From Hydrotalea sp. (lineage in GTDB: Bacteria; Bacteroidota; Bacteroidia; Chitinophagales; Chitinophagaceae), in contig DAHXOT010000013.1 of assembly GCA_027364735.1 (NCBI GenBank), forward strand, positions 1 through 61,974: a stretch of DNA of 61,974 nt, read 5' to 3'. The stretch's first letter is position 1, and each line of letters starts with the position of its first letter. Position numbers and translations under genes: made by a program. Positions 29,264-39,508 of this stretch are shown piece after piece. A model generated the notes under the pieces. That model saw only the letters and a list, made by a program, of their open reading frames with translations, had not been told where the DNA came from and did not search any database.

Positions 29264-29968
29264 TTAGAATTTAGCCATTGCTTTAGGAAATAAAATATTA
29301 TTTTCTAAATGTACATGCTGATGCAAATCTTCTTCAAATGCTTGAAGCTCATTAAGCACTACTTTAAAAGTGGTACAAGCTCCTTCGGGAGGTGTATAGT
29401 TATTTGTAAGTTGTTTTATTTGTTGCATTATTTCGCCTGCATGATCATGCTCCATTTCCATAACCTGAATAGGCCCTGAAATAAAATCGGCATTGGGTAA
29501 TGGTTGGCCATTAACTTTTGCAGAAGAAATTTCTTTTATTCTTGGAAATAAAATCATTTCTTCTTTGTGCATGTGCATTATCATTTCTTGTTGTATTTCT
29601 TGAAATAGTTGAAATACTGTTATCATATAATTAAACCTTTCACCATGTTTATAAGCTACTTTTTCTAAATGAGAAATAATAGTAGGCATACTCTGTTTAA
29701 CATAAAAATGGTGATGAATTAAAATGTAATTAACCAATTGTTCTTCCGTCATTTCTGTAAATGGAAGATGCTTGTTGTTGGGAGCTGATATGATTGCTTC
29801 TATTTCTTTTGTAATTTCTTCTGCAGAAATATTTTTTTCGGTACAAGCTTCATGTAACGGTCTTTTTCCTTTGCAACAAAAATCTAAATTATATTTTTCA
29901 AATATCGTTGCTGCCTGATGATTTTCTGTAACAATAGTTGCTAATGTTTTTTCTAAAATAGTGTTCAT
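29264..29968 (-). CDS. ric: Iron-sulfur cluster repair di-iron protein
   Basis: Ric/YtfE/ScdA repairs iron-sulfur centres damaged by nitric oxide. The 234 residues (ATG 29968 chosen over an upstream codon) contain the N-terminal DUF542 segment with FEKYNLDFCCKGKRPLHEAC (paired Cys) and a hemerythrin-like di-iron domain with the ligands IHHHFYVKQ, HMHKEEMILFPR, MEMEHDHAGE and HLENNILFPKAM. It lies at the edge of the nitrous-oxide-reduction island and has an FNR-like palindrome 51 bases upstream of its ATG. Confidence 0.95.
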   Translation of the reverse strand: MNTILEKTLATIVTENHQAATIFEKYNLDFCCKGKRPLHEACTEKNISAEEITKEIEAIISAPNNKHLPFTEMTEEQLVNYILIHHHFYVKQSMPTIISHLEKVAYKHGERFNYMITVFQLFQEIQQEMIMHMHKEEMILFPRIKEISSAKVNGQPLPNADFISGPIQVMEMEHDHAGEIMQQIKQLTNNYTPPEGACTTFKVVLNELQAFEEDLHQHVHLENNILFPKAMAKF

Positions 29969-29982
29969 GTGTAATGTTTTGG

Positions 29983-30028
29983 CAAAGTTTAGTATCATTA
30001 ATTTTTCTTCTTGTGATTCAAATCATCT
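29983..30028 (-). promoter_or_regulatory. FNR-like site A and promoter of ric
   Basis: The 18-base site (30011-30028) keeps TGATT..AATCA of the shared palindrome (core ATGATTGCAATCAT) with mismatches at the ends. On the minus strand a TTTG box (29986-29983) begins 34 bases from the centre, which puts the site near -41. This is the class II activator position. Confidence 0.7.
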
Positions 30029-30032
30029 TTTA

Positions 30033-31253
30033 TTAAAATTCTTTTTTACCAGTAATAATTGGCAAATTAATTTTTAATAGTCCTGCAAATAAAATTATTG
30101 CAACAGCAAAAAGTGCTTCGTTAAGCAATGGAATATAGAAATAAAACAAGTCGGCAGTTCCTTGTAGCGTTAATAATACTTCATTTAAAATAATTCCTAT
30201 TATAAAAACATAAATACCGGTTTTTATTTTTTTTGGTAAAAAATTAATTTCAAACTGAAGGATATAGCTAAACAAAAAAATACTGGTAAAGCCCAATAAT
30301 ACTAAATGTAAATAGCCAATTACAATGGGTCTGAAGCCAAATGCCAATTGACTTAATGATGGAATGGTAGACAGTGCTTGTAACATTATTTTTATAGATA
30401 AAGCAATAGCACTTAATATAAAAAGTAATTTACTTACTGCATTAAAATTGGCAAACTGAATTTTATTTTTAATCAGCAATTGTAAAAATAAAAACCATGC
30501 AATTACTTGTATAATTGCAGCGATAACTACTAATAAATAAAGTAGAAAAGGGATAGGCAACCATAGTGCCGATAAAAAATAAGCAGGCACAGATGCTATA
30601 AAAAAAAGTAAAAATATTTGAAACAATAATTTTTTATTGAAAATAAATTTTTCTGTAACAATGGTTAATAAACCTAAGCAACCAAAAAGAAACCAGCCAT
30701 TATATTGAAAATGAAGAAAAAAATACACAGCAAGTAATGAAATTTTTTGAGCAATAATTTTTTTAACCATCATGAAAGCCAAGCCAAATGCACCTATTGA
30801 AGAAATTGCATTAAAAAAAATGGCAGCTTTAAAATAATAATGAGCAACTTTTTTTTCAGATTCTTTATTTAAATCTTTCCAAAATACAATTGCAAACCAA
30901 TACGAAACAAAAACAGAAAGGGTAGAAAAAATAATAGAAAATAATCCATAACCCTCAAATGGAAAACTAAACAACATGCCGTATGCAGTAATTAAATTGC
31001 TATAAAGAATCCATTTGTATTTTTTAATGATAATTTCGGGCGAAGCAAATTGTAATTGTTTTATTAATAAGAACATTAATGCCTGAGTAATCCATCCGGC
31101 AAATGCAAAATGCGAATGTCCGTGTAATAAATTTCTTTGTTCTATGAATGGAAGTGAGAAAGCAATTTTATATCGAAGAATAATACCTAATAATGAAACA
31201 ATCAGTAAATTTAAAAAGGCAATTTTTAACCATTTGTGAAGTGAAAAAAACAT
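30033..31253 (-). CDS. Polytopic membrane protein with conserved histidines, candidate nitrogen-oxide response protein
   Basis: 406 residues from ATG 31253 (the frame opens further upstream at a TTG that would overlap the promoter site). About 11-12 hydrophobic helices. Histidines sit in or next to helices: LLHGHSHFAFAGW (H44, H46, H48), VAHYYFKA (H139), FFLHFQYNGWFLFG (H181) and GYLHLVLLGF (H316). The His-rich second helix and the HLVLLGF helix recall heme-copper oxidase subunit I and NnrS-type heme membrane proteins, but the full ligand set of an oxidase is not evident. It lies between ric and the FNR-like regulator and has the same palindrome upstream, so a role in NO or N2O metabolism is inferred from context. 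Function is unproven. Confidence 0.75.
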   Translation of the reverse strand: MFFSLHKWLKIAFLNLLIVSLLGIILRYKIAFSLPFIEQRNLLHGHSHFAFAGWITQALMFLLIKQLQFASPEIIIKKYKWILYSNLITAYGMLFSFPFEGYGLFSIIFSTLSVFVSYWFAIVFWKDLNKESEKKVAHYYFKAAIFFNAISSIGAFGLAFMMVKKIIAQKISLLAVYFFLHFQYNGWFLFGCLGLLTIVTEKFIFNKKLLFQIFLLFFIASVPAYFLSALWLPIPFLLYLLVVIAAIIQVIAWFLFLQLLIKNKIQFANFNAVSKLLFILSAIALSIKIMLQALSTIPSLSQLAFGFRPIVIGYLHLVLLGFTSIFLFSYILQFEINFLPKKIKTGIYVFIIGIILNEVLLTLQGTADLFYFYIPLLNEALFAVAIILFAGLLKINLPIITGKKEF

Positions 31254-31267
31254 AGTAATTATTTGTT

Positions 31268-31313
31268 CAAAATAACTACAGAGTAAAAGTTTTTTATATG
31301 ATTGCAATCATAA
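31268..31313 (-). promoter_or_regulatory. FNR-like site B and promoter of the membrane-protein gene
   Basis: A 14-base perfect palindrome ATGATTGCAATCAT (31298-31311). On the minus strand TTTG (31271-31268) begins 34 bases from the centre, and the ATG is 51 bases from the centre, exactly the geometry seen at ric. Confidence 0.82.
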
Positions 31314-31314
31314 A

Positions 31315-31926
31315 TTATAAAGCTATATCACTATAATATACTTTTCCTTTCTTAATTAATAAATCTCCTTTATCGTGCATATTTCGCATGGCTCTTATTA
31401 CGGTTTCAACCCTTAATCCTGTCATATCTGCAATTTGTTGCCTTGTAAGTTGTAGTTGATTACATTCGGAACAAACATTTTTTTTATTCTTTTTTAAGTA
31501 GTTTAATAAGGTAGAAATTCGATGTTCTGGATCGTTAAATGCCAACTCTTTTAAAATAAGAAATTTGAAACGAATACGTTGTGCCAATAAATGAGAAAAT
31601 CGTAAATGAATATCACTTCTTTCTTTCAGTAGTTGGTGAAAAGAAGCTTTATGTAAACGCAGTATAAGTGAAGTAGTGTTGCTAATAGCCGATGCGGCAA
31701 AACCTTCACCATCAAACAAAGGCAGCTCTCCAAAACATTCTCCGGGTTCAATAATTGTTTGAATAAATTCTTTTCCCTCTTCATTAATATTTACCCAACG
31801 CACGCTTCCTTCAACTAATTGATGATAAAAATTGCAAACACCACCTTCATTAAAAATAATTTCATTAGGCTCTAATTTTTTGTAGGTAGCACCCCATGCT
31901 AATAATAAATCAATATCAATCATCAT
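31315..31926 (-). CDS. FNR/DNR-like Crp-family regulator of the nos island
   Basis: 203 residues from ATG 31926 (tandem ATG ATG). N-terminal beta-roll sensor domain (EIIFNEGGVCNFYHQLVEG, EPGECFGELPLFDGEGFAAS), dimerisation helix, and C-terminal winged HTH LTRQQIADMTGLRVETVIRA. The recognition helix VETVIR resembles VETISR of FNR, keeping the Glu and Arg that read the TGA half-site. This fits the palindrome ATGAT-N4-ATCAT found at four promoters nearby. The N-terminal cysteine cluster of oxygen-sensing FNR is absent, so a DNR-like heme/NO sensor is more likely; a CSEC pair lies near residue 170. It is transcribed away from the nos operon. Confidence 0.88.
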   Translation of the reverse strand: MMIDIDLLLAWGATYKKLEPNEIIFNEGGVCNFYHQLVEGSVRWVNINEEGKEFIQTIIEPGECFGELPLFDGEGFAASAISNTTSLILRLHKASFHQLLKERSDIHLRFSHLLAQRIRFKFLILKELAFNDPEHRISTLLNYLKKNKKNVCSECNQLQLTRQQIADMTGLRVETVIRAMRNMHDKGDLLIKKGKVYYSDIAL

Positions 31927-32020
31927 AGCTAAATCGTTTATTGCAGATAATATTAAAATTGGTAACGCTAAAATTACATTAGCGAGAATATACAATGTAT
32001 GATTTTACCCCGAAAAAATG

Positions 32021-32034
32021 ATGATAAATATCAT
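32021..32034 (-). promoter_or_regulatory. Possible autoregulatory palindrome of the FNR-like gene
   Basis: ATGATAAATATCAT keeps the ATGAT/ATCAT half-sites of the regulon palindrome with the usual 4-base spacer (AAAT). On the minus strand a TACATTG box lies with its TTG 33-35 bases from the centre, close to the geometry of the other sites. Weaker than sites A-D. Confidence 0.45.
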
Positions 32035-32086
32035 GTTCTTTAATAAATATTCTTTTAATACCGAAAGTTGTTGCTTTTTCTCATAC

Positions 32087-32132
32087 TTATGATTGTACGC
32101 ATAAAATACCGACTTATTGCTTTCTAATCTTG
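32087..32132 (+). promoter_or_regulatory. FNR-like site C and promoter of the nos operon
   Basis: TTATGATTGTACGCATAA (32087-32104) matches the regulon palindrome with changes in the right half. TAATCTTG (32125-32132), a one-mismatch version of TAnnTTTG, has its CTTG beginning 34 bases from the centre, as at sites A and B. The first gene of the nos operon starts at 32161. Confidence 0.75.
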
Positions 32133-32160
32133 CATACTTAAATAAAAAAATTATAAGCTC

Positions 32161-32622
32161 ATGAAACTAAATTTATTTATTCTTTCAATGGTATTTTTTC
32201 TAATATCCTGTGGCTATAGTAGTGCTGATAAAGCACCTGGTACCGATGGTGCAAATACAAAAGATATTTCATCATACGATCCTAATAGAGGCTTGGGTAA
32301 ATTTTCTAAAATAGAAGTATCTCCCAATTTAGATGATGCAAAAGCTACTGCCGGAGAAAAAGTATATGGAGTTAAATGTAGTAGTTGTCATAAACTAACT
32401 GGAGAAAAATTAGTTGGTCCGGGTTGGAAAGGTGTTACAAGCAGACATGCCCCCGAATGGATTATGAATTTTGTTACAAACACAGATGAAATGATTAATA
32501 AAGATCCCAAAGCCCAAGCACTGTTAGAAATATGTTTGGTGCGTATGCCTAACCAAAATTTAAGTGATGATGATGCTAGAAATATTTATGAGTTTATGCG
32601 TAAAAATGATGGAGTAAAATAA
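32161..32622 (+). CDS. c-type cytochrome lipoprotein of the nos operon
   Basis: 153 residues. Lipoprotein signal with lipobox LISC (Cys17), a single heme motif CSSCH, and a distal Met in VRMPNQNLSDDD. A mono-heme class I cytochrome immediately before nosZ (17 bases) is usual in clade II nos clusters and probably hands electrons to NosZ in the periplasm. Confidence 0.88.
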   Translation: MKLNLFILSMVFFLISCGYSSADKAPGTDGANTKDISSYDPNRGLGKFSKIEVSPNLDDAKATAGEKVYGVKCSSCHKLTGEKLVGPGWKGVTSRHAPEWIMNFVTNTDEMINKDPKAQALLEICLVRMPNQNLSDDDARNIYEFMRKNDGVK

Positions 32623-32639
32623 ACCCTAAAAGTTGATAT

Positions 32640-34634
32640 ATGAAAAAACTAAAATTAAATTATGTGTTATTGTCATTATCAATGATAGTAATACTTGGTA
32701 TGATTGCTTGTAAACCAAAAAATGCAGGCAATGCCGTAAGTGCCGATGCTGCAGAAAAAGCCTATGTTGCACCAGGCCATTACGATGAATTTTACAATTT
32801 TGTTTCGGGCGGATTTAGCGGACAAATGAGCGTATATGGTTTGCCCAGTGGAAGATTATTAAGAGTTGTACCTATTTTTTCTAATGACCCCGAAAGCGGA
32901 TATGGTTATAGTGAAGAAACAAAACCTATGTTAAACACTTCACATGGCTTTATTCCTTGGGATGATCAGCATCATTTAGACCTTTCACAAACTAATGGTG
33001 AAATTGATGGACGATGGGTTTTTGCTAATGCCAATAATACACCCCGTGTTGCAAGGGTTGATTTAAGAACTTTTCATACTGCCGAAATTATTGAATTACC
33101 CAACAGTTCAGGTAACCATAGTTCTCCTTTCATTACAGAAAATACCGAATACGTAGTTGCAGGTACACGTTTTAGTGTTCCGCCCGATAATGTAAACGGA
33201 GATGTACCTATTAATACCTATAAACAAAATTTTAAAGGCACTATCAGTTTTATACGTGTAGCAAAAGAAGATGGTAAAATGGATATTGCTTTTCAATTGC
33301 AATGCCCTCCGGTAGATTTTGATTTAAGTCATGCCGGTAAAGGAAAATCTCATGGATGGTTTTTCTTTTCATGTTATAATACCGAGCAAGCCAATACTTT
33401 ATTAGAAGTAAATGCTTCTCAACGCGATAAAGATTTTATTATGGCTGTTAATTGGAAAAAAGCCGAAGAATATATAAAAGCAGGGAAAGGGAAAAAAGTA
33501 CCTGTAAAATATGCGCATAATGTATATAACGAAAGTACACATACTGCAACTTCCGAAATAAAAAATGAAGTATTGGTATTAGATACAAAAGAGTTAAAAG
33601 ATATTTGCTATTTTATTCCTTGCCCTAAATCTCCTCATGGTTGCGATGTTGACCCAACAGGTGAATATATTGTAGGTAGCGGAAAATTAGCTGCTCTTAT
33701 TCCTGTATTTAGTTTCGATAAAATTCAGGCTGCAATTGCCAAAAAAGATTTTGCTGGCGATTATGAAGGAATACCGGTTATTAAATACGAATCGGCTTTA
33801 TATGGTGAAGTTCAAAAACCAGGCTTAGGGCCATTGCATACAGAGTTTGACGGAAAAGGTAATGCCATTACTTCCTTTTTTGTTTCTTCTGAAATTGTAA
33901 AATGGAATATTAAGGATTTAAAAGTAATTGACCGTCAGCCTACATTTTATTCTGTTGGACATTTATGCATACCCGGTGGCGATACTAAAAAACCCAATGC
34001 TAAATATGTAATTGCCTATAATAAAATAACAAAAGATAGATATTTACCTACCGGCCCCGAATTGGCTCAAAGTGCACAACTATACGATATTAGTGGAGAT
34101 AAAATGCAATTGATATTAGATTTTCCAACTATTGGCGAGCCACATTATGCCCAAGCTGTTGCTGCCGATGTTATAAAAAACAATTCGATTAAATTTTATA
34201 AAATTGAAGAAAATAAAAATGCATTTGTAGCTAAAGGCGAAAGTGAAGCAAAAGTGGTTAGAACAGGAAATAAAGTAGATATATATATGACCTCTATTCG
34301 TTCTCATTTTGTACCCGATAATATTGAAGGTATAAAAGTTGGCGATGAAGTATTTTTTCATGTAACCAATTTGGAACAAGATTGGGATATTCCGCATGGC
34401 TTTGCCATTAAGGGTGCTCCTAATGGCGAGCTGTTAATAATGCCTGGTGAAACACAAACATTAAAATGGGTTGCAGAAAAATCAGGTATATTCCCATTCT
34501 ATTGTACCGATTTTTGTAGTGCATTACATCAAGAAATGCAAGGATATATTAGAGTTTCTCCACAAGGAAGTAATGTTCCTTTATTATTTAGCACCGGTAA
34601 AAATTTACCCAAATCCGATAGTACTAAAAAGTAG
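32640..34634 (+). CDS. nosZ: Nitrous-oxide reductase, clade II (Sec/lipoprotein type)
   Basis: Reduces N2O to N2 in the periplasm. The 664 residues start with a Sec lipoprotein signal (MIVILGMIAC, Cys24) rather than a twin-arginine signal, which marks the clade II ('atypical') enzyme. Copper sites: CuZ-region histidines in WDDQHHLD and CPKSPHGCD, and the C-terminal cupredoxin CuA site YCTDFCSALHQEM (Cys622, Cys626, His630, Met633) plus the upstream His of IPHGF. Cytochrome, nosB-like, nosL and nosDFY genes surround it, so the system appears complete for N2O respiration. Confidence 0.97.
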   Translation: MKKLKLNYVLLSLSMIVILGMIACKPKNAGNAVSADAAEKAYVAPGHYDEFYNFVSGGFSGQMSVYGLPSGRLLRVVPIFSNDPESGYGYSEETKPMLNTSHGFIPWDDQHHLDLSQTNGEIDGRWVFANANNTPRVARVDLRTFHTAEIIELPNSSGNHSSPFITENTEYVVAGTRFSVPPDNVNGDVPINTYKQNFKGTISFIRVAKEDGKMDIAFQLQCPPVDFDLSHAGKGKSHGWFFFSCYNTEQANTLLEVNASQRDKDFIMAVNWKKAEEYIKAGKGKKVPVKYAHNVYNESTHTATSEIKNEVLVLDTKELKDICYFIPCPKSPHGCDVDPTGEYIVGSGKLAALIPVFSFDKIQAAIAKKDFAGDYEGIPVIKYESALYGEVQKPGLGPLHTEFDGKGNAITSFFVSSEIVKWNIKDLKVIDRQPTFYSVGHLCIPGGDTKKPNAKYVIAYNKITKDRYLPTGPELAQSAQLYDISGDKMQLILDFPTIGEPHYAQAVAADVIKNNSIKFYKIEENKNAFVAKGESEAKVVRTGNKVDIYMTSIRSHFVPDNIEGIKVGDEVFFHVTNLEQDWDIPHGFAIKGAPNGELLIMPGETQTLKWVAEKSGIFPFYCTDFCSALHQEMQGYIRVSPQGSNVPLLFSTGKNLPKSDSTKK

Positions 34635-34647
34635 GTTTTATATAAAC

Positions 34648-34684
34648 AAACGTGAGAGACAGTATCGTTTCTCACGTTTTTCTC
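34648..34684 (+). terminator. Hairpin between nosZ and the downstream nos genes
   Basis: AAACGTGAGA (34648-34657) pairs with TCTCACGTTT (34670-34679), followed by a T-rich run. Placed inside the operon, it could act as a partial terminator or protect the nosZ mRNA 3' end, so nosZ would be made in excess over the assembly genes. Confidence 0.7.
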
Positions 34685-34694
34685 AATTTTTTTT

Positions 34695-35276
34695 ATGAAA
34701 ATAGCTAAGTTGCAAAAGCTAACTAGAATATTGGTTTTAGTTTGTGGTTTATCATTACTATTGGTTTTAGTTACACCAATTTGGAGAATTGATTTAGATG
34801 CACCACAATATCCCGAAGGATTAAGCTTAAGTATTTATGCAAAAGGGTTAGCAGGAAATGTAGATATTATTAATGGCTTAAACCATTATATTGGAATGAA
34901 AACACTGCACAATTCTGATTTTTTTGAATTTACTGTTTTGCCTTACATTATCTCATTTTTTGCAGTATTATTTATAGTAGTTGCCCTATTTCGAAAAAAA
35001 ATTTTCTTATATATTGCTTTCGCTTTGTTTGTTGTATTTGGTATTGTTGCCATGATAGATTTTTGGAGATGGGAATACGATTACGGACATAACTTAAACC
35101 CCGATGCAGCTATTAAAGTTCCGGGAATGGCGTATCAACCACCACTAATAGGATTTAAGCAATTATTAAATTTTGGCGCCTATTCTATACCTGATATAGG
35201 TGGATGGATTTTTATTGCAATTGGAATAGTATTATTAGCTTTAGTTTTTAGTGAAATGAAATATGCCAAAAAATAA
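34695..35276 (+). CDS. NosB-like membrane protein of clade II nos clusters
   Basis: 193 residues with four to five hydrophobic helices (for example ILVLVCGLSLLLVLVTPIW, YIISFFAVLFIVVALF, FLYIAFALFVVFGIVAMI and WIFIAIGIVLLALVF). A periplasmic segment carries LDAPQYPEGLSLSIYAKG and INGLNHYIGMKTL. This position and motif recur directly after clade II nosZ, where the gene has been called nosB; the function is not known. It overlaps nosL by 14 bases. Confidence 0.78.
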   Translation: MKIAKLQKLTRILVLVCGLSLLLVLVTPIWRIDLDAPQYPEGLSLSIYAKGLAGNVDIINGLNHYIGMKTLHNSDFFEFTVLPYIISFFAVLFIVVALFRKKIFLYIAFALFVVFGIVAMIDFWRWEYDYGHNLNPDAAIKVPGMAYQPPLIGFKQLLNFGAYSIPDIGGWIFIAIGIVLLALVFSEMKYAKK

Positions 35277-35709
35277 TTTTTTAATACTTACTACAATGCT
35301 TGTGGTAAGTACAGTTTTTATCAGTAGTTGTAATACAGAGCCAGATCCAATTATGGTTAGTGTTGATCAATGTTTTTATTGTAAAATGATGGTTTCGGAT
35401 GTAAAGTTTGGAGCAGAAATAATTACCGTAAAAGGTAAAAAAATAAAATTTGATGATACACATTGTGTATTAGCTTTCATCAATACAAAAATGATACAAC
35501 CAACAGAAATAAAAGAAGTGTATTTAACAGATTTTTCAGCATTAAATCATCCTTTAATAAAAGCTACAGAAGCATTATTACTGCAAAGCGATCTGTTTAA
35601 AAGTCCTATGAATGGAAATATTGCTGCATTTGGAAATGCTGATAGTATGAATAAAATTAAATCAACTTATCGGGCAAATGCTGTTAGTTGGAATCAATTA
35701 GTAAAATGA
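35263..35709 (+). CDS. nosL: NosL, copper-binding lipoprotein
   Basis: 148 residues. Lipoprotein signal ending FISSC, then the conserved CFYCKM motif (VDQCFYCKMMVSD) with which NosL binds Cu(I), and KIKFDDTHCVLAF. NosL delivers copper to NosZ in the periplasm. It overlaps both the preceding membrane-protein gene and nosD (ATGA overlap), so it is translationally coupled. Confidence 0.93.
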   Translation: MPKNNFLILTTMLVVSTVFISSCNTEPDPIMVSVDQCFYCKMMVSDVKFGAEIITVKGKKIKFDDTHCVLAFINTKMIQPTEIKEVYLTDFSALNHPLIKATEALLLQSDLFKSPMNGNIAAFGNADSMNKIKSTYRANAVSWNQLVK

Positions 35710-36941
35710 AATCAGTAGTACATGTTATTATATTAACCTTCTTATTTTTTTCTACCAATGCTACAACAATTCGCGTTGGTAATCATCAATTATTTCATAC
35801 CATTAATTCGGCACTTTTAGCCGCTTCGGATAGAGATACTATTCTTGTTGAGAAAAATGTGTATTTCGAAAAAAATATAGAAATCACAAAGCAAATTATT
35901 TTAAAAGGAATTGATTATCCTGTTTTAGATGGAGAACATACATACGAAATAATTTCTATTAAAGCAGATAATGTGGTTGTTGATGGCTTTAAATTACAGC
36001 ATAGTGGTGTATCGAGTTTGGTTGATATAGCCGGAATAAAAATTTATAATAAACACAATACACAAATTATCAATAATATTTTAGATGATACTTTTTTTGG
36101 TATTTACTCTCAATATGGCATTAATTGTATAATTCGAAATAATAGTTTAAATGCACATAGAACAGAAGAACAGCAAAGTGGTAATGGCATTCACTGCTGG
36201 AAGAGTGATAGTATGCAAATTATTGGCAATACAATTTCGGGGCATAGAGACGGTATTTATTTTGAATTTGTAACTCATTCTATTATCTGGCGAAATTATT
36301 CGTTTAAAAATTTGCGATATGGTTTGCATTTTATGTTTTCAAACGATGATGCTTATGTAACCAACCGGTTCGAAAATAATGGCTCGGGCGTTTCGGTAAT
36401 GTATTCGCATGGCGTAAAAATGTTTAATAATTATTTTAAAGAAAATTGGGGAGATGCTGCGTACGGAATTTTATTAAAAGAAATTTCTGATAGCTATATT
36501 CAAGGAAATCATTTTGAAAAAAATACCAGCGGTATTTATATGGAAGGTGCAGTTAGAATTGATGTTACACGCAACACATTTAAAAATAATGGTTGGGCAT
36601 TAAAAATACAAGCAAGTTGTATGGATATTGATTTACATGAAAACAATTTTATTGGAAATACTTTTGATGTAGGAACCAATGGCTCTTTGGTACTAAATAA
36701 ATTTGATAAAAACTTTTGGGATAAATATGAAGGATACGATTTAAATAAAGATAAAATTGGCGATGTTCCCTACAGGCCCGTAAGTATGTATTCGATGATA
36801 GTTGAAAAATATCCTTCTGCCATGATGCTTTTTCGAAGTTTTATAACATCTCTTATGGATAAGACCGAAAAAGTAATTCCTAGTTTAACACCTGAAAACT
36901 TAAAAGATAATAGTCCACTAATGAAACCTTTACCATTATGA
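35706..36941 (+). CDS. nosD: NosD, periplasmic copper-site maturation protein
   Basis: 411 residues from ATG 35706, which overlaps the nosL stop (ATGA). Sec signal, then a right-handed beta-helix of CASH/NosD repeats (NNILDDTFFGIYSQYG, ISGHRDGIYFEF, FKENWGDAAYGILLKEISDS, NTSGIYMEGAVRIDVTRN). It works with the NosFY transporter in assembling the CuZ centre. It overlaps nosF by four bases. Confidence 0.94.
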   Translation: MKSVVHVIILTFLFFSTNATTIRVGNHQLFHTINSALLAASDRDTILVEKNVYFEKNIEITKQIILKGIDYPVLDGEHTYEIISIKADNVVVDGFKLQHSGVSSLVDIAGIKIYNKHNTQIINNILDDTFFGIYSQYGINCIIRNNSLNAHRTEEQQSGNGIHCWKSDSMQIIGNTISGHRDGIYFEFVTHSIIWRNYSFKNLRYGLHFMFSNDDAYVTNRFENNGSGVSVMYSHGVKMFNNYFKENWGDAAYGILLKEISDSYIQGNHFEKNTSGIYMEGAVRIDVTRNTFKNNGWALKIQASCMDIDLHENNFIGNTFDVGTNGSLVLNKFDKNFWDKYEGYDLNKDKIGDVPYRPVSMYSMIVEKYPSAMMLFRSFITSLMDKTEKVIPSLTPENLKDNSPLMKPLPL

Positions 36942-37648
36942 TTACTATTGATAACATATCTAAACAATTCGGTAAATTAAAAGCATTAGATGGCGTTTCT
37001 GTTATGTGTGATGCTGCCCAATCTGTTGCATTAATTGGCCCCAATGGCAGTGGTAAAACAACTTTAATTAAATGTATTTTAGGAATGGTAGTACCCGATT
37101 CGGGTAATATTTTATTCAATGAAAAAAATATTACTAATGAATGGAAATACAGAGAGCAAATTGGGTACATGCCTCAAATCGGAAGATATCCGGATAATAT
37201 GACCATTGGGCAAGTAATAGATATGATGAAAGATATTCGTTACAATAATATAGCATTTGATGAAACTTTGATTGAAGCGTTTTCTTTAAAAAATATGTAT
37301 CATAAAAGAATGAGAACACTATCCGGTGGAACCAGACAAAAAGTAAGCGCTTCTTTGGCGTTCTTGTTTAATCCTCAAGTATTGATTTTAGATGAACCTA
37401 CTGCCGGATTAGATCCGGTTGCTTCAGAAATATTGAAAGAAAAAATTATTGATGAAAAGAAAAAAGGGAAACTGGTTTTAATTACTTCTCATATTCTAAG
37501 CGAACTTGATGATTTAATAACAGAAGTAATTTATATGCAAGAAGGAAAATTAATGTTTCATAAATCTTTACACCAATTACATGTAGATACCGGCGAAATA
37601 AAATTGTCTAAAGCCATCGCAAAAGTTATGTTAAACAAAGTAGCATGA
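36938..37648 (+). CDS. nosF: NosF, ABC transporter ATPase
   Basis: 236 residues with Walker A GPNGSGKTT, signature LSGGTRQK, Walker B VLILDEPTAGLD and switch His in LITSHIL. It is the energy-coupling subunit of NosFY, needed with NosD for NosZ copper-site maturation. ATGA overlaps join it to both nosD and nosY. Confidence 0.94.
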   Translation: MITIDNISKQFGKLKALDGVSVMCDAAQSVALIGPNGSGKTTLIKCILGMVVPDSGNILFNEKNITNEWKYREQIGYMPQIGRYPDNMTIGQVIDMMKDIRYNNIAFDETLIEAFSLKNMYHKRMRTLSGGTRQKVSASLAFLFNPQVLILDEPTAGLDPVASEILKEKIIDEKKKGKLVLITSHILSELDDLITEVIYMQEGKLMFHKSLHQLHVDTGEIKLSKAIAKVMLNKVA

Positions 37649-38412
37649 AAAAAATAATTAAATATGTTATTACCGATATTTTAAGAAATAAAATTGTATT
37701 GGCATACACAATTTTTTTACTTGCCATTTCTTTTAGTGTATTTAGTTTAGAAGATAATCCTACCAAAGGAATGCTTAGTTTGTTAAACATTATACTAATT
37801 GTAATTCCATTAATAAGTATCATATTTTCGGCTATTTATATTTATAATAGTGCCGAGTTTATTGAATTATTGGTAAGTCAACCTTTAAAGAGAAAATCTA
37901 TTTGGTTAAGTTTATTTGTTGGGCTTTCCTCATCATTGTCCATCGCTTTTTTAGTAGGAACGGCGTTGCCTGTTATAATTTATGCATTCTCCATAACAGG
38001 ATTAGTAATGATTGTGATAGGCTTATTATTAACCATCATCTTTATAGCAATTGCCATGCTTGCTACTTTGTTTACAAGAGATAAAGCAAAAGGTATTGGT
38101 ATAACTATTCTTTTATGGTTATATTTTTCTTTATTATTCGATGGATTGGTTTTGTTTTTATTATTTCAATTTGCAGATTATCCGGTAGAAAAAATAATGG
38201 TTGTTATTAGTGCATTTAACCCAATTGATTTAGGTAGAATTTTAATTCTTTTAAAAATGGATATTTCTGCTTTAATGGGATATACCGGAGCAATATTTAA
38301 AAACTTTTTTGGAACAAATTTAGGCTTAATAATTTCTTTTATAATTATGTTGTTATGGATTGCTATTCCGGTTTGGTTGTCGGTAACTAAATTCCATAAA
38401 AAAGATTTGTAA
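37645..38412 (+). CDS. nosY: NosY, ABC transporter permease
   Basis: 255 residues with six hydrophobic helices (for example IVLAYTIFLLAISFSVF, LVGTALPVIIYAFSITGLVM, GIGITILLWLYFSLLFDGLV and GLIISFIIMLLWIAIPVWL). Its place directly after nosF and its length match NosY. It forms the membrane channel of NosDFY. Confidence 0.92.
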   Translation: MKKIIKYVITDILRNKIVLAYTIFLLAISFSVFSLEDNPTKGMLSLLNIILIVIPLISIIFSAIYIYNSAEFIELLVSQPLKRKSIWLSLFVGLSSSLSIAFLVGTALPVIIYAFSITGLVMIVIGLLLTIIFIAIAMLATLFTRDKAKGIGITILLWLYFSLLFDGLVLFLLFQFADYPVEKIMVVISAFNPIDLGRILILLKMDISALMGYTGAIFKNFFGTNLGLIISFIIMLLWIAIPVWLSVTKFHKKDL

Positions 38413-38432
38413 TAACATTTTAATAGTTTTTT

Positions 38433-38810
38433 ATGAAAAAAGATATTACAGACAGAAATGATATTGAAGCATTGGTAAATTTATTTTATACCAAAGTAAA
38501 AAACGATGATGTATTAAAGCATTTTTTTAAAAAAGTTAGTTGGGAAAAACATTTAAATGTGATGTACAACTTTTGGGAAAATGCCATTTTTTATACAGGA
38601 TCATATGTAGGTAATCCAATGAATGTACATCAACACCTACATCAAAAAATGCCTCTATCCGAACTTGATTTTGAAAGGTGGATTTATCTGTTTATGGAAT
38701 CTACCGATGAGTTGTTTACCGGCGAAAAAGCCAAACTAATAAAACATAGAGCTATTAGTATTGCTACTGTGATGAAGTTGAAAATTATTGAAAAAAATAC
38801 AGTACAATAA
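38433..38810 (+). CDS. Group III truncated hemoglobin
   Basis: 125 residues, alpha-helical. FYTKVKNDDVLKHFFKKVSW at the start and the segment FWENAIFYTGSYVGNPMNVH-QHLH with the proximal His region (MNVHQHLHQKMPLSELDFERW) match the group III (P) truncated hemoglobins. Such proteins bind O2 and NO. Twenty bases after nosY and before the terminator, it is the last gene of the nos operon; protection from NO, or an O2/NO role for NosZ maturation, is inferred. Confidence 0.85.
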   Translation: MKKDITDRNDIEALVNLFYTKVKNDDVLKHFFKKVSWEKHLNVMYNFWENAIFYTGSYVGNPMNVHQHLHQKMPLSELDFERWIYLFMESTDELFTGEKAKLIKHRAISIATVMKLKIIEKNTVQ

Positions 38811-38845
38811 AAAAAGCATGAACAAAGGCTGTTCATGCTTACAAC
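38811..38845. terminator. Bidirectional terminator between the nos operon and the fasciclin gene
   Basis: AAGCATGAACA (38814-38824) pairs with TGTTCATGCTT (38830-38840). On the minus strand it is followed by a long T run (fasciclin transcript); on the plus strand the tail is weaker. Confidence 0.82.
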
Positions 38846-38862
38846 TCTCAAACAAATATAGT

Positions 38863-39426
38863 CTATTTTTTTGGGGGTAATAGTACAGCATCAATTACAT
38901 GAATAATTCCATTCGAAGCAGGTATAGAAGCAATAATAGTGGCTGTTCCATTCACCATTATTTTACCATCTTTTTTTGTAATGGTAATATTTCCTCCATT
39001 TACTTGCCCAATTGTTTGCCCATCTTGTAGTGCATCTGTTTTAAATACACCAACCGAAACATGATATTGTAAAATATCAATTAAATCGTTTTTCTTTTCA
39101 GGTTTTAATAAATTATCAACTGTTCCGGCAGGCAACTTATCAAATGCCGCATTGGTAGGTGCAAAAACAGTAAATGGTCCGGCATTGCTTAATGCATCAA
39201 CCAAGTCGGCAGCTTTTACCGCAGCAACTAATGTAGTATGGTCTTTACTACCTATTGCTACCTGCACAACATTTTTTGCTGATTGATTGTCTTGTACACC
39301 CGATTGCCCTGTTACTTTTGCATCTGTAGAGTTATTTGATGCATTATTGTTTTGAGAAGCATCATTATTACAAGCAGCAAAATTTAATACACAAAAAATA
39401 AAAATAGGCCAATAAATTTTTTTCAT
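38863..39426 (-). CDS. Fasciclin-domain lipoprotein
   Basis: 187 residues from ATG 39426 (the frame opens 13 codons upstream). Lipoprotein signal with lipobox FAAC (Cys19), an Asn/Ser-rich linker, and one FAS1 domain (LVAAVKAADLVDALSNAGPF, TVFAPTNAAFDKLPAGTVD, LQYHVSVGVF, NGIIHVIDAVLLPP). Fasciclin proteins are surface adhesion or binding modules. It sits convergent with the nos operon and has a perfect copy of the regulon palindrome upstream, suggesting it is induced under the same conditions. Its contribution to N2O or anaerobic metabolism is unknown. Confidence 0.88.
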   Translation of the reverse strand: MKKIYWPIFIFCVLNFAACNNDASQNNNASNNSTDAKVTGQSGVQDNQSAKNVVQVAIGSKDHTTLVAAVKAADLVDALSNAGPFTVFAPTNAAFDKLPAGTVDNLLKPEKKNDLIDILQYHVSVGVFKTDALQDGQTIGQVNGGNITITKKDGKIMVNGTATIIASIPASNGIIHVIDAVLLPPKK

Positions 39427-39462
39427 GAGCAAAAAGTATTTTAAGGTTAAAATATAATACTG

Positions 39463-39508
39463 CAAAGTATTATATTGAGTTTCCTTTCGTTATGATTGCA
39501 ATCATAAC
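39463..39508 (-). promoter_or_regulatory. FNR-like site D and promoter of the fasciclin gene
   Basis: GTTATGATTGCAATCATAAC (39489-39508) is a perfect 20-base palindrome, the best copy in the window. On the minus strand TTTG (39466-39463) begins 33 bases from the centre. In the plus direction no TTTG lies at that distance, so it probably serves fasciclin and not the uronate operon that starts at 39571. Confidence 0.82.

Follow-up and report, generated by a model that had tools for sequence, protein, structure and literature searches.

A conserved Crp/Fnr-type regulon with its own operator and a fixed promoter spacing around the nitrous oxide reductase genes of Hydrotalea

In a stretch of 61,974 nt from Hydrotalea sp. 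(Bacteroidota; Chitinophagaceae), here called the window, operators of one kind lie before a gene for iron-sulfur cluster repair (ric), a membrane protein gene (memb), the nitrous oxide reductase (nos) operon, a fasciclin lipoprotein gene (fas) and the gene of a Crp/Fnr superfamily protein situated among them (the regulator; Table 1). The results presented here point to a real, conserved regulon under a Crp/Fnr-type protein whose subfamily has an operator of its own, and the regulator is in all probability a local class II activator, acting through this one operator on promoters of the Bacteroidota -7 type. Two things go beyond chance: a pair of exact copies of the 16-mer TATGATTGCAATCATA, the only two in the 2.77 Mb genome (2,773,140 bases), both in the window, before memb and fas; and the persistence of both sites and spacing among relatives. 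An earlier note, made from the sequence alone, had described four palindromes with TTTG or CTTG boxes as an FNR/DNR-like regulon. All four palindromes and their boxes were found again, and the Crp/Fnr protein and the single regulon stand; the operator, however, is TATGA-N6-TCATA, and the window sites do not have the FNR form TTGAT-N4-ATCAA.

Results

The distance from operator to -7 box is fixed. In the window, YTTG begins 33 bases past the operator centre at ric, memb and nos and 32 bases past it at fas, and the spacing of 33 or 34 first reported was an inclusive count of the same distances. Geometry was counted in 36 non-redundant loci, the window and 35 relatives (the near-duplicates L016, L030 and L032 were dropped), using palindromes with at least 7/8 core matches between -260 and +40 of ric, memb, the regulator, the cytochrome c gene of the nos operon (cytc) or fas. 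Of these 189 palindromes, 53 had YTTG at exactly 33 bases from the centre, and other offsets had a mean of 1.5; the binomial figure for this spacing (9e-65), like the other counts given here, takes no account of relatedness. Near nosZ, memb2 and globin, 26 palindromes were counted, none of them with YTTG at 33. An annotation-free count over 38 loci, with near-duplicates kept and the window excluded, gave two peaks of TTTG after TGATTNNAATCA, one at 33 with 22 of the 78 oriented sites and one at 55 with 9, the latter because of tandem sites at regulator promoters. There, an ATCA half-site follows that of the palindrome by exactly 22 bp in 16 of 36 promoters (next commonest offset, 2). The window's own regulator promoter shows the same design, with a palindrome, a second half-site 22 bp beyond the first and, 33 bases after the centre of that second site, a TAATTTTA box; the original four sites, although real, were thus not the complete set, and a fifth palindrome has to be added.

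The -7 boxes vary from operon to operon: TAATCTTG at nos, TTnnTTTG at memb, nAnnTTTG at ric and TAGATTTA at fas (consensus, 7 sites). C is the first base of YTTG in 12 of the 15 nos sites with the geometry, so that the CTTG of the window's nos promoter is conserved at this operon. The Bacteroidota -7 and -33 elements are quoted as TAnnTTTG and TTTG (PMC7366714; here and below, papers are cited for the part of their text that was covered). Among the boxes of the window, those of nos (TAATCTTG) and the regulator (TAATTTTA) alone have the TA, and both depart from the consensus at one end; the ric, memb and fas boxes have TTTG without TA. A sigma-70 scan was discarded as promoter evidence, its 65 matches comparing with 66 in shuffles; such a scan is not informative for Bacteroidota.

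The operator tracks the regulator. A profile search of 198 genomes of the phylum gave 30 places outside the family, of which 27 were examined (7 first and 20 further loci), the remaining three being in G304, one of them inside L243. TATGAN6TCATA was present at 18 of the 27 homologue loci (composition predicts 0.30), spread over 16 of the 21 genomes, and at one of the 27 Crp/Fnr paralogue loci L172-L198 (0.25 expected); the strict form TATGATTNNAATCATA occurred at 9/27 homologue loci (0.003 expected) and at 0/27 paralogue loci. The helix GLRVETVIR was found in six of the first seven outside loci, all but L226, and in 11 of the 15 among the 20 further loci in which a helix was found. A helix was found at 26 of the paralogue loci, with ATESLIR or a similar sequence. 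At L224, L225, L227 and L228 a TAnnTTTG box lies 34 bases after the palindrome centre. Within the family, TATGAN6TCATA-N24-26-YTTG occurs 2.13 times per genome in the 78 genomes with the regulator and 0.73 times in the 216 without it, reversed controls giving 0.40 and 0.33 (means without G087, which alone gave 23 control matches). These associations support the proposal of the earlier note that the adjacent Crp/Fnr protein is the regulator of these sites, as far as comparison of sequences can do so. One genome outside the family, G304, has seven regulator homologues (L226, L243, L249, L255).

The gene neighborhood is conserved as well. In all 18 named-record loci, from species genomes scanned for the regulator (protein identity 59-97%), memb is next to the regulator and cytc is divergent; nosZ follows cytc in 17, the contig of L016 ending before that point. 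Both ric and fas are present in 13 of the 18; ric was not found in L026, L027, L029, L031 and L032, and the L027 stretch reaches past the place. Among 20 regulator regions of more distant relatives, nosZ is present in 16, and memb lies beside the regulator in 16. The regulator was found in 77 of 294 family genomes (78 once G007, with a regulator by profile, is added); nosZ is present in 73 of these 77 versus 82 of the 217 others.

The regulator itself matches PF00027 (E 5e-18) and PF13545 (E 3e-8) and has a CRP fold (best PDB E 1e-16); an NCBIfam scan reached no equivalog cut-off. In one alignment the recognition helices read LRVETVIR in the window, LTVETISR in E. coli FNR and CSRETVGR in CRP, which bears out the likeness to FNR (VETISR) first claimed for VETVIR. 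No FNR-type N-terminal cysteine cluster was found in the window regulator or in the 36-row family alignment, whereas E. coli FNR and a paralogue in the same genome (C43) have theirs. CRP binds the phosphate of cyclic AMP through the cassette residues R82 and S83; in place of this Arg and Ser the window regulator has Phe and Ala, and its relatives mostly Tyr and Ala. Aligned on TGA, the half-sites of CRP and FNR are TGTGA and nTTGA, and that of the present subfamily is TATGA. The corresponding second base is A in 16 of 19 memb and 13 of 15 nos sites with the geometry. Residue 180 of Crp/Fnr proteins has been linked to that base (Rodionov et al. 2005, PMC1274295). Since the window regulator has Val at this residue, as FNR does, the change to TATGA would have to involve neighbours such as Arg172 or Ile177.

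Several observations weigh against this regulator as the reader of all these sites, or against the sites themselves. The exact spacing was present in only some of the loci at each promoter (Table 1; 7 of 36 for the regulator), and some relatives have promoters without the site. At ric, the second half-site base is A in 4 of 10 sites and C in 6. The operator is not present at 9 of the 27 outside homologue loci. Four other cyclic nucleotide monophosphate (cNMP)-domain proteins are encoded in the genome, including a cysteine-rich FNR-like protein (C43) and a receiver-CRP fusion (C31), both with the helix ATESTIR and thus with Glu and Arg at the same positions as the window regulator. Twenty nos regions without the regulator were looked at, from 82 nosZ-positive genomes below the regulator cut (G007 among the 82), and in 13 of them a TAnnTTTG-type box lies at exactly 33 bases from a palindrome, if not always before nos. 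Frequencies are no better: at up to three mismatches the 16-mer occurs 39 times genome-wide versus 34 in the reversed control, a background level; the loose core TGATN4ATCA occurs five times in the window versus 1.86 in shuffles, a weak excess reached by 3 of 100 shuffles; and the composite TGATTNNAATCA-N26-28-TTTG has three matches in the genome, all in the window, with two in the reversed control.

Other counts are similar. Up to two mismatches from TATGATTNNAATCATA, the window has four matches versus 1.52 in shuffles (3 of 100 reach that), and the loose core occurs 100 times genome-wide versus 58 reversed. The sole two-mismatch copy of the 16-mer, on contig C40 between two open reading frames (ORFs), is not among the TTTG-spaced matches. 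Because genome and window counts are at or little above background, an argument from palindrome number alone was dropped; of the chance-frequency test proposed earlier, the loose palindromes come out near background, and the preference for a set -7 spacing is present in relatives. As the nos clusters without the regulator share it, the 33-base geometry appears to be shared by class II activators in general on the Bacteroidota -7 box. We therefore reject the geometry as proof of the window regulator: the fixed, class II-like distance noted earlier holds, but it is not specific to this protein. In eight of the 20 regulator-less nos regions (L199, L201, L210, L212, L213, L214, L216, L218) a receiver-CRP match of at least 350 residues lies in the same 17-19 kb stretch, raising the possibility of regulator exchange; one other, L211, carries a 36% relative of the regulator.

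Additional candidate sites were found across the genome. A loose composite pattern gave 12 matches versus four reversed, nine of them outside the window. Sites with the exact 33-base distance lie before pta-ackA (C31), nifJ divergent from pdxH (C34) and a 445-residue ORF without a family match (C45), and one on C32 is followed by an Hsp20 ORF that begins more than 100 bases further. Those at 34 bases lie upstream of isocitrate dehydrogenase (C1, L034) and of a CcmE ORF (C24, L036); three more are unlikely, two within ORFs (C22, C43) and one without a downstream gene on its strand (C48). None of the nine has both TA flanks, and for that reason they were not counted as regulon members. They may belong to the FNR-like paralogue or another Crp/Fnr regulator, or be due to chance. 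In relatives, genomes with and without the regulator taken together and some matches falling inside genes, cores with TTTG at 32-34 stand before ric, memb, a NorC-like cytochrome c, hemN, PdxH, a [2Fe-2S] thioredoxin-like subunit and others. These proteins were mostly named by eye; four were scanned against Pfam, which matched the cytochrome c, the radical SAM protein (HemN, TIGR00538 above cut-off) and the [2Fe-2S] thioredoxin-like protein and gave no match for that of L074. Small proteins with a CNGxC motif, possibly metal-related, are encoded downstream of sites in L074, L149 and L228. In the Hydrotalea genome, the cysteine-rich FNR-like gene of C43 (L151) adjoins, by eye, ORFs for CcoI and a 705-residue CcoN/CcoO fusion.

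The memb product, first labelled a His-rich membrane protein, is indeed a membrane protein, but the label is better replaced by that of its fold. Its predicted model (pLDDT 91) matches the cbb3 oxidase subunit CcoN with Z 35.2 over 401 residues (root-mean-square deviation 3.3) and NorB with Z 33.6 and 32.6, and neither Pfam, NCBIfam and PDB sequence searches nor a profile comparison with CcoN gave a match. Heme-copper oxidases hold their metals with one histidine in helix VI, a pair in VII and a pair in X. Over 28 memb sequences, the invariant histidines are confined to helix II, helix VI (one) and helix X (one), and helix VII has none. As modelled, memb has the heme-copper-oxidase fold but lacks part of the metal-site histidines. 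Matches to memb occur in 31 of the 198 phylum genomes, and it adjoins the regulator in at least three genomes of other families (G295, G347, G358). In G077 (L128, 4172-8573, - strand) a 769-residue ORF lies next to the regulator and memb, and its NorB cytochrome-c-like and COX1 domains mark it as a quinol-type nitric oxide (NO) reductase (qNorB); no nosZ match was found in G077 at E 1e-100.

The features of the window are collected in Table 1. For two genes we prefer a start other than that of the listed ORF: the ATG at 29968 for ric, because the listed start at 29998 is upstream of the -7 box, and the ATG at 39426 for fas, because the listed TTG at 39465 falls within the -7 box. The nos operon has family matches to TIGR04246 (938 bits) and TIGR04247 (405 bits), and the names nosF and nosY are based on position and sequence.

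Table 1. Operators, -7 boxes and genes of the proposed regulon in the window
Feature	Position	Strand	Sequence and remarks
ric operator	30011-30028	no strand	TTGTGATTCAAATCATCT; core TGATTCAAATCA at 30014-30025; YTTG exactly 33 from centre in 9/16 ric loci
ric -7 box	29983-29990	-	AAACTTTG; TTTG 33 bases beyond operator centre
ric, iron-sulfur cluster repair di-iron protein	29264-29968	-	TIGR03652, 234 bits (cut-off 205)
memb operator	31296-31313	no strand	perfect TATGATTGCAATCATA at 31297-31312; exactly 33 in 19/32 memb loci, 32-34 in 23
memb -7 box	31268-31275	-	TTATTTTG; TTTG 33 bases from centre
memb, 12-helix membrane protein	30033-31253	-	heme-copper-oxidase subunit I fold (model); invariant H46, H48, H181, H316
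regulator, 203 residues, Crp/Fnr superfamily	31315-31926	-	helix LRVETVIR; no N-terminal Cys cluster
fifth palindrome, distal operator of regulator promoter	32020-32035	no strand	CATGATATTTATCATC read on - strand
second half-site of regulator promoter	31998-32003	-	ATCATA; exactly 22 bp downstream of first
probable regulator -7 box	31969-31976	-	TAATTTTA; 55 = 33+22 bases from palindrome centre
nos operator	32087-32104	no strand	TTATGATTGTACGCATAA; 32088-32103 = TATGATTGTACGCATA, one half degenerate; exactly 33 in 14/34 cytc loci
nos -7 box	32125-32132	+	TAATCTTG; CTTG 33 bases from centre
nos operon	32161-38810	+	cytochrome c, clade II (Sec-type) nosZ, membrane protein, nosL, nosD, nosF, nosY, globin
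fas operator	39489-39508	no strand	perfect TATGATTGCAATCATA at 39491-39506; exactly 33 in 2/22 fas loci, 32-34 in 4
fas -7 box	39463-39470	-	ATACTTTG; TTTG 32 bases from centre
fas, fasciclin-domain lipoprotein	38863-39426	-	PF02469, E 1.4e-35

Discussion

From the arrangement of these sites we infer how the regulon could work. At ric, memb, nos and fas, a dimer of the regulator would bind TATGA(T/C)T-N2-A(A/G)TCATA, with operators centred 32-33 bases upstream of YTTG, and would activate transcription from start points predicted by the geometry. The first base of TAnnYTTG would then lie about 29 bases from the operator centre, and a spacing of about 29 bases is that of class II (-41.5) activators in E. 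coli. The bound dimer may replace the -33 element and make contact with RNA polymerase. At the regulator promoter, the full palindrome and the half-site 22 bp closer would act in tandem, an arrangement that probably serves autoregulation.

The signal is most likely NO, perhaps combined with low oxygen, since the targets are an Fe-S repair protein, an NO-reductase-like membrane protein and nitrous oxide (N2O) reductase. Low oxygen (or N2O) in place of NO is possible, if on balance doubtful. NosZ is an anaerobic enzyme, and core sites exactly 33 bases from TTTG precede nifJ, pta-ackA and, in the regulator-bearing G061, hemN; the regulator, however, lacks the cysteines of FNR, the nifJ and pta sites are without full TA flanks, and the ric and memb targets and the qNorB neighbour fit NO.

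The sites could also be read mainly by the cysteine-rich FNR-like protein of C43, which stands beside cbb3 genes, or by the receiver-CRP fusion of C31, the local regulator having a minor or different role. Both proteins share the recognition Glu and Arg, and the sites at pta-ackA and nifJ resemble anaerobic FNR targets. Core palindromes also occur near nos in genomes without the regulator, and the regulator-less G005, G091, G166, G175, G218 and G262 keep them at 32-33 before ric and the NorC-like cytochrome gene. We nevertheless consider this unlikely, as the outer TA...TA of the operator follows the GLRVETVIR subfamily and not the paralogues (18/27 vs 1/27 loci), and full sites are about three times more frequent in genomes with the regulator. 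Least probable is that the regulator represses, or represses and activates, as deduced for negative regulation of nosZ by a Nitrosophilus Crp/Fnr protein (PMC11539149), because a strictly kept distance of 33 bases would fit contact with polymerase and repressor sites tolerate many positions.

Beyond local class II activation by the regulator, it can be imagined that GLRVETVIR proteins form a phylum-wide Bacteroidota subfamily of Crp/Fnr proteins for NO (or N2O) with TATGA-N6-TCATA as its operator class. Its oldest partner would be memb, a protein that may have lost part of its metal site and might handle or sense NO, with nos added later. We put this forward tentatively, as somewhat short of probable.

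Bacteroidota that reduce N2O with a clade II enzyme are regarded as an important sink for this gas. How nos genes are switched in this phylum is poorly known, the literature covered naming Rrf2- or Crp/Fnr-like neighbours and no operator. No published operator for a Bacteroidota nos regulator was found in the literature searched, which mostly did not include subscription journals; on the strength of that search only, TATGA-N6-TCATA appears to be undescribed. The present analysis proposes a regulator with its operator, a rule for the promoters (YTTG 33 bases from the operator centre) and a list of targets, all open to tests in culturable Chitinophagaceae; Sediminibacterium goheungense DSM 28323 (L033) and Flavihumibacter profundi KCTC 62290 (L031) carry the cluster. 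In addition, it offers a way to locate class II promoters of Crp/Fnr proteins in Bacteroidota, where promoters are unlike those of the textbook, and draws attention to memb as an uncharacterised protein of heme-copper-oxidase fold linked to NO and N2O genes.

Among known systems, the nearest by phylum are the regulators of Bacteroidetes clade II nos clusters (PMC6264515), likewise encoded beside nos, although these are mostly Rrf2 proteins, with one Crp/Fnr case in the CFB superphylum and no operator analysis in the text covered. MalR-like Crp/Fnr proteins have been predicted for Flavobacteriales and Saprospiraceae (PMC8510549), and HcpR in Bacteroides is the subject of PMC13370916. NssA, NssB and NssC of Wolinella and relatives are also Crp/Fnr proteins tied to clade II nosZ, but the consensus searched there was TTGA-N6-TCAA, in another phylum and with another type of promoter (PMC11539149). 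Like the NO-responsive Crp/Fnr proteins DNR, NnrR and HcpR, the window regulator is without the FNR cysteines and adjoins nos and Fe-S repair (dnrN/ytfE-like) genes; the DNR structure 3dkw is among its PDB sequence matches, CRP scoring higher. The HcpR-type operators wyTTGACnnnnGTCAArw, wTGTGAnnnnnnTCACAw and GTAACnnnnGTTAC, as given in the part of PMC1274295 covered, do not contain TATGA. With FNR of E. coli, finally, the regulator shares the Crp/Fnr fold, Val-Glu-Thr and an Arg in the recognition helix, and a centre that the geometry would place about 41 bases from the start. It differs from FNR in having no cysteine cluster, with Ile for its Ser and Arg for its Thr, and the half-site is TATGA instead of TTGAT, set before a TAnnTTTG -7 box.

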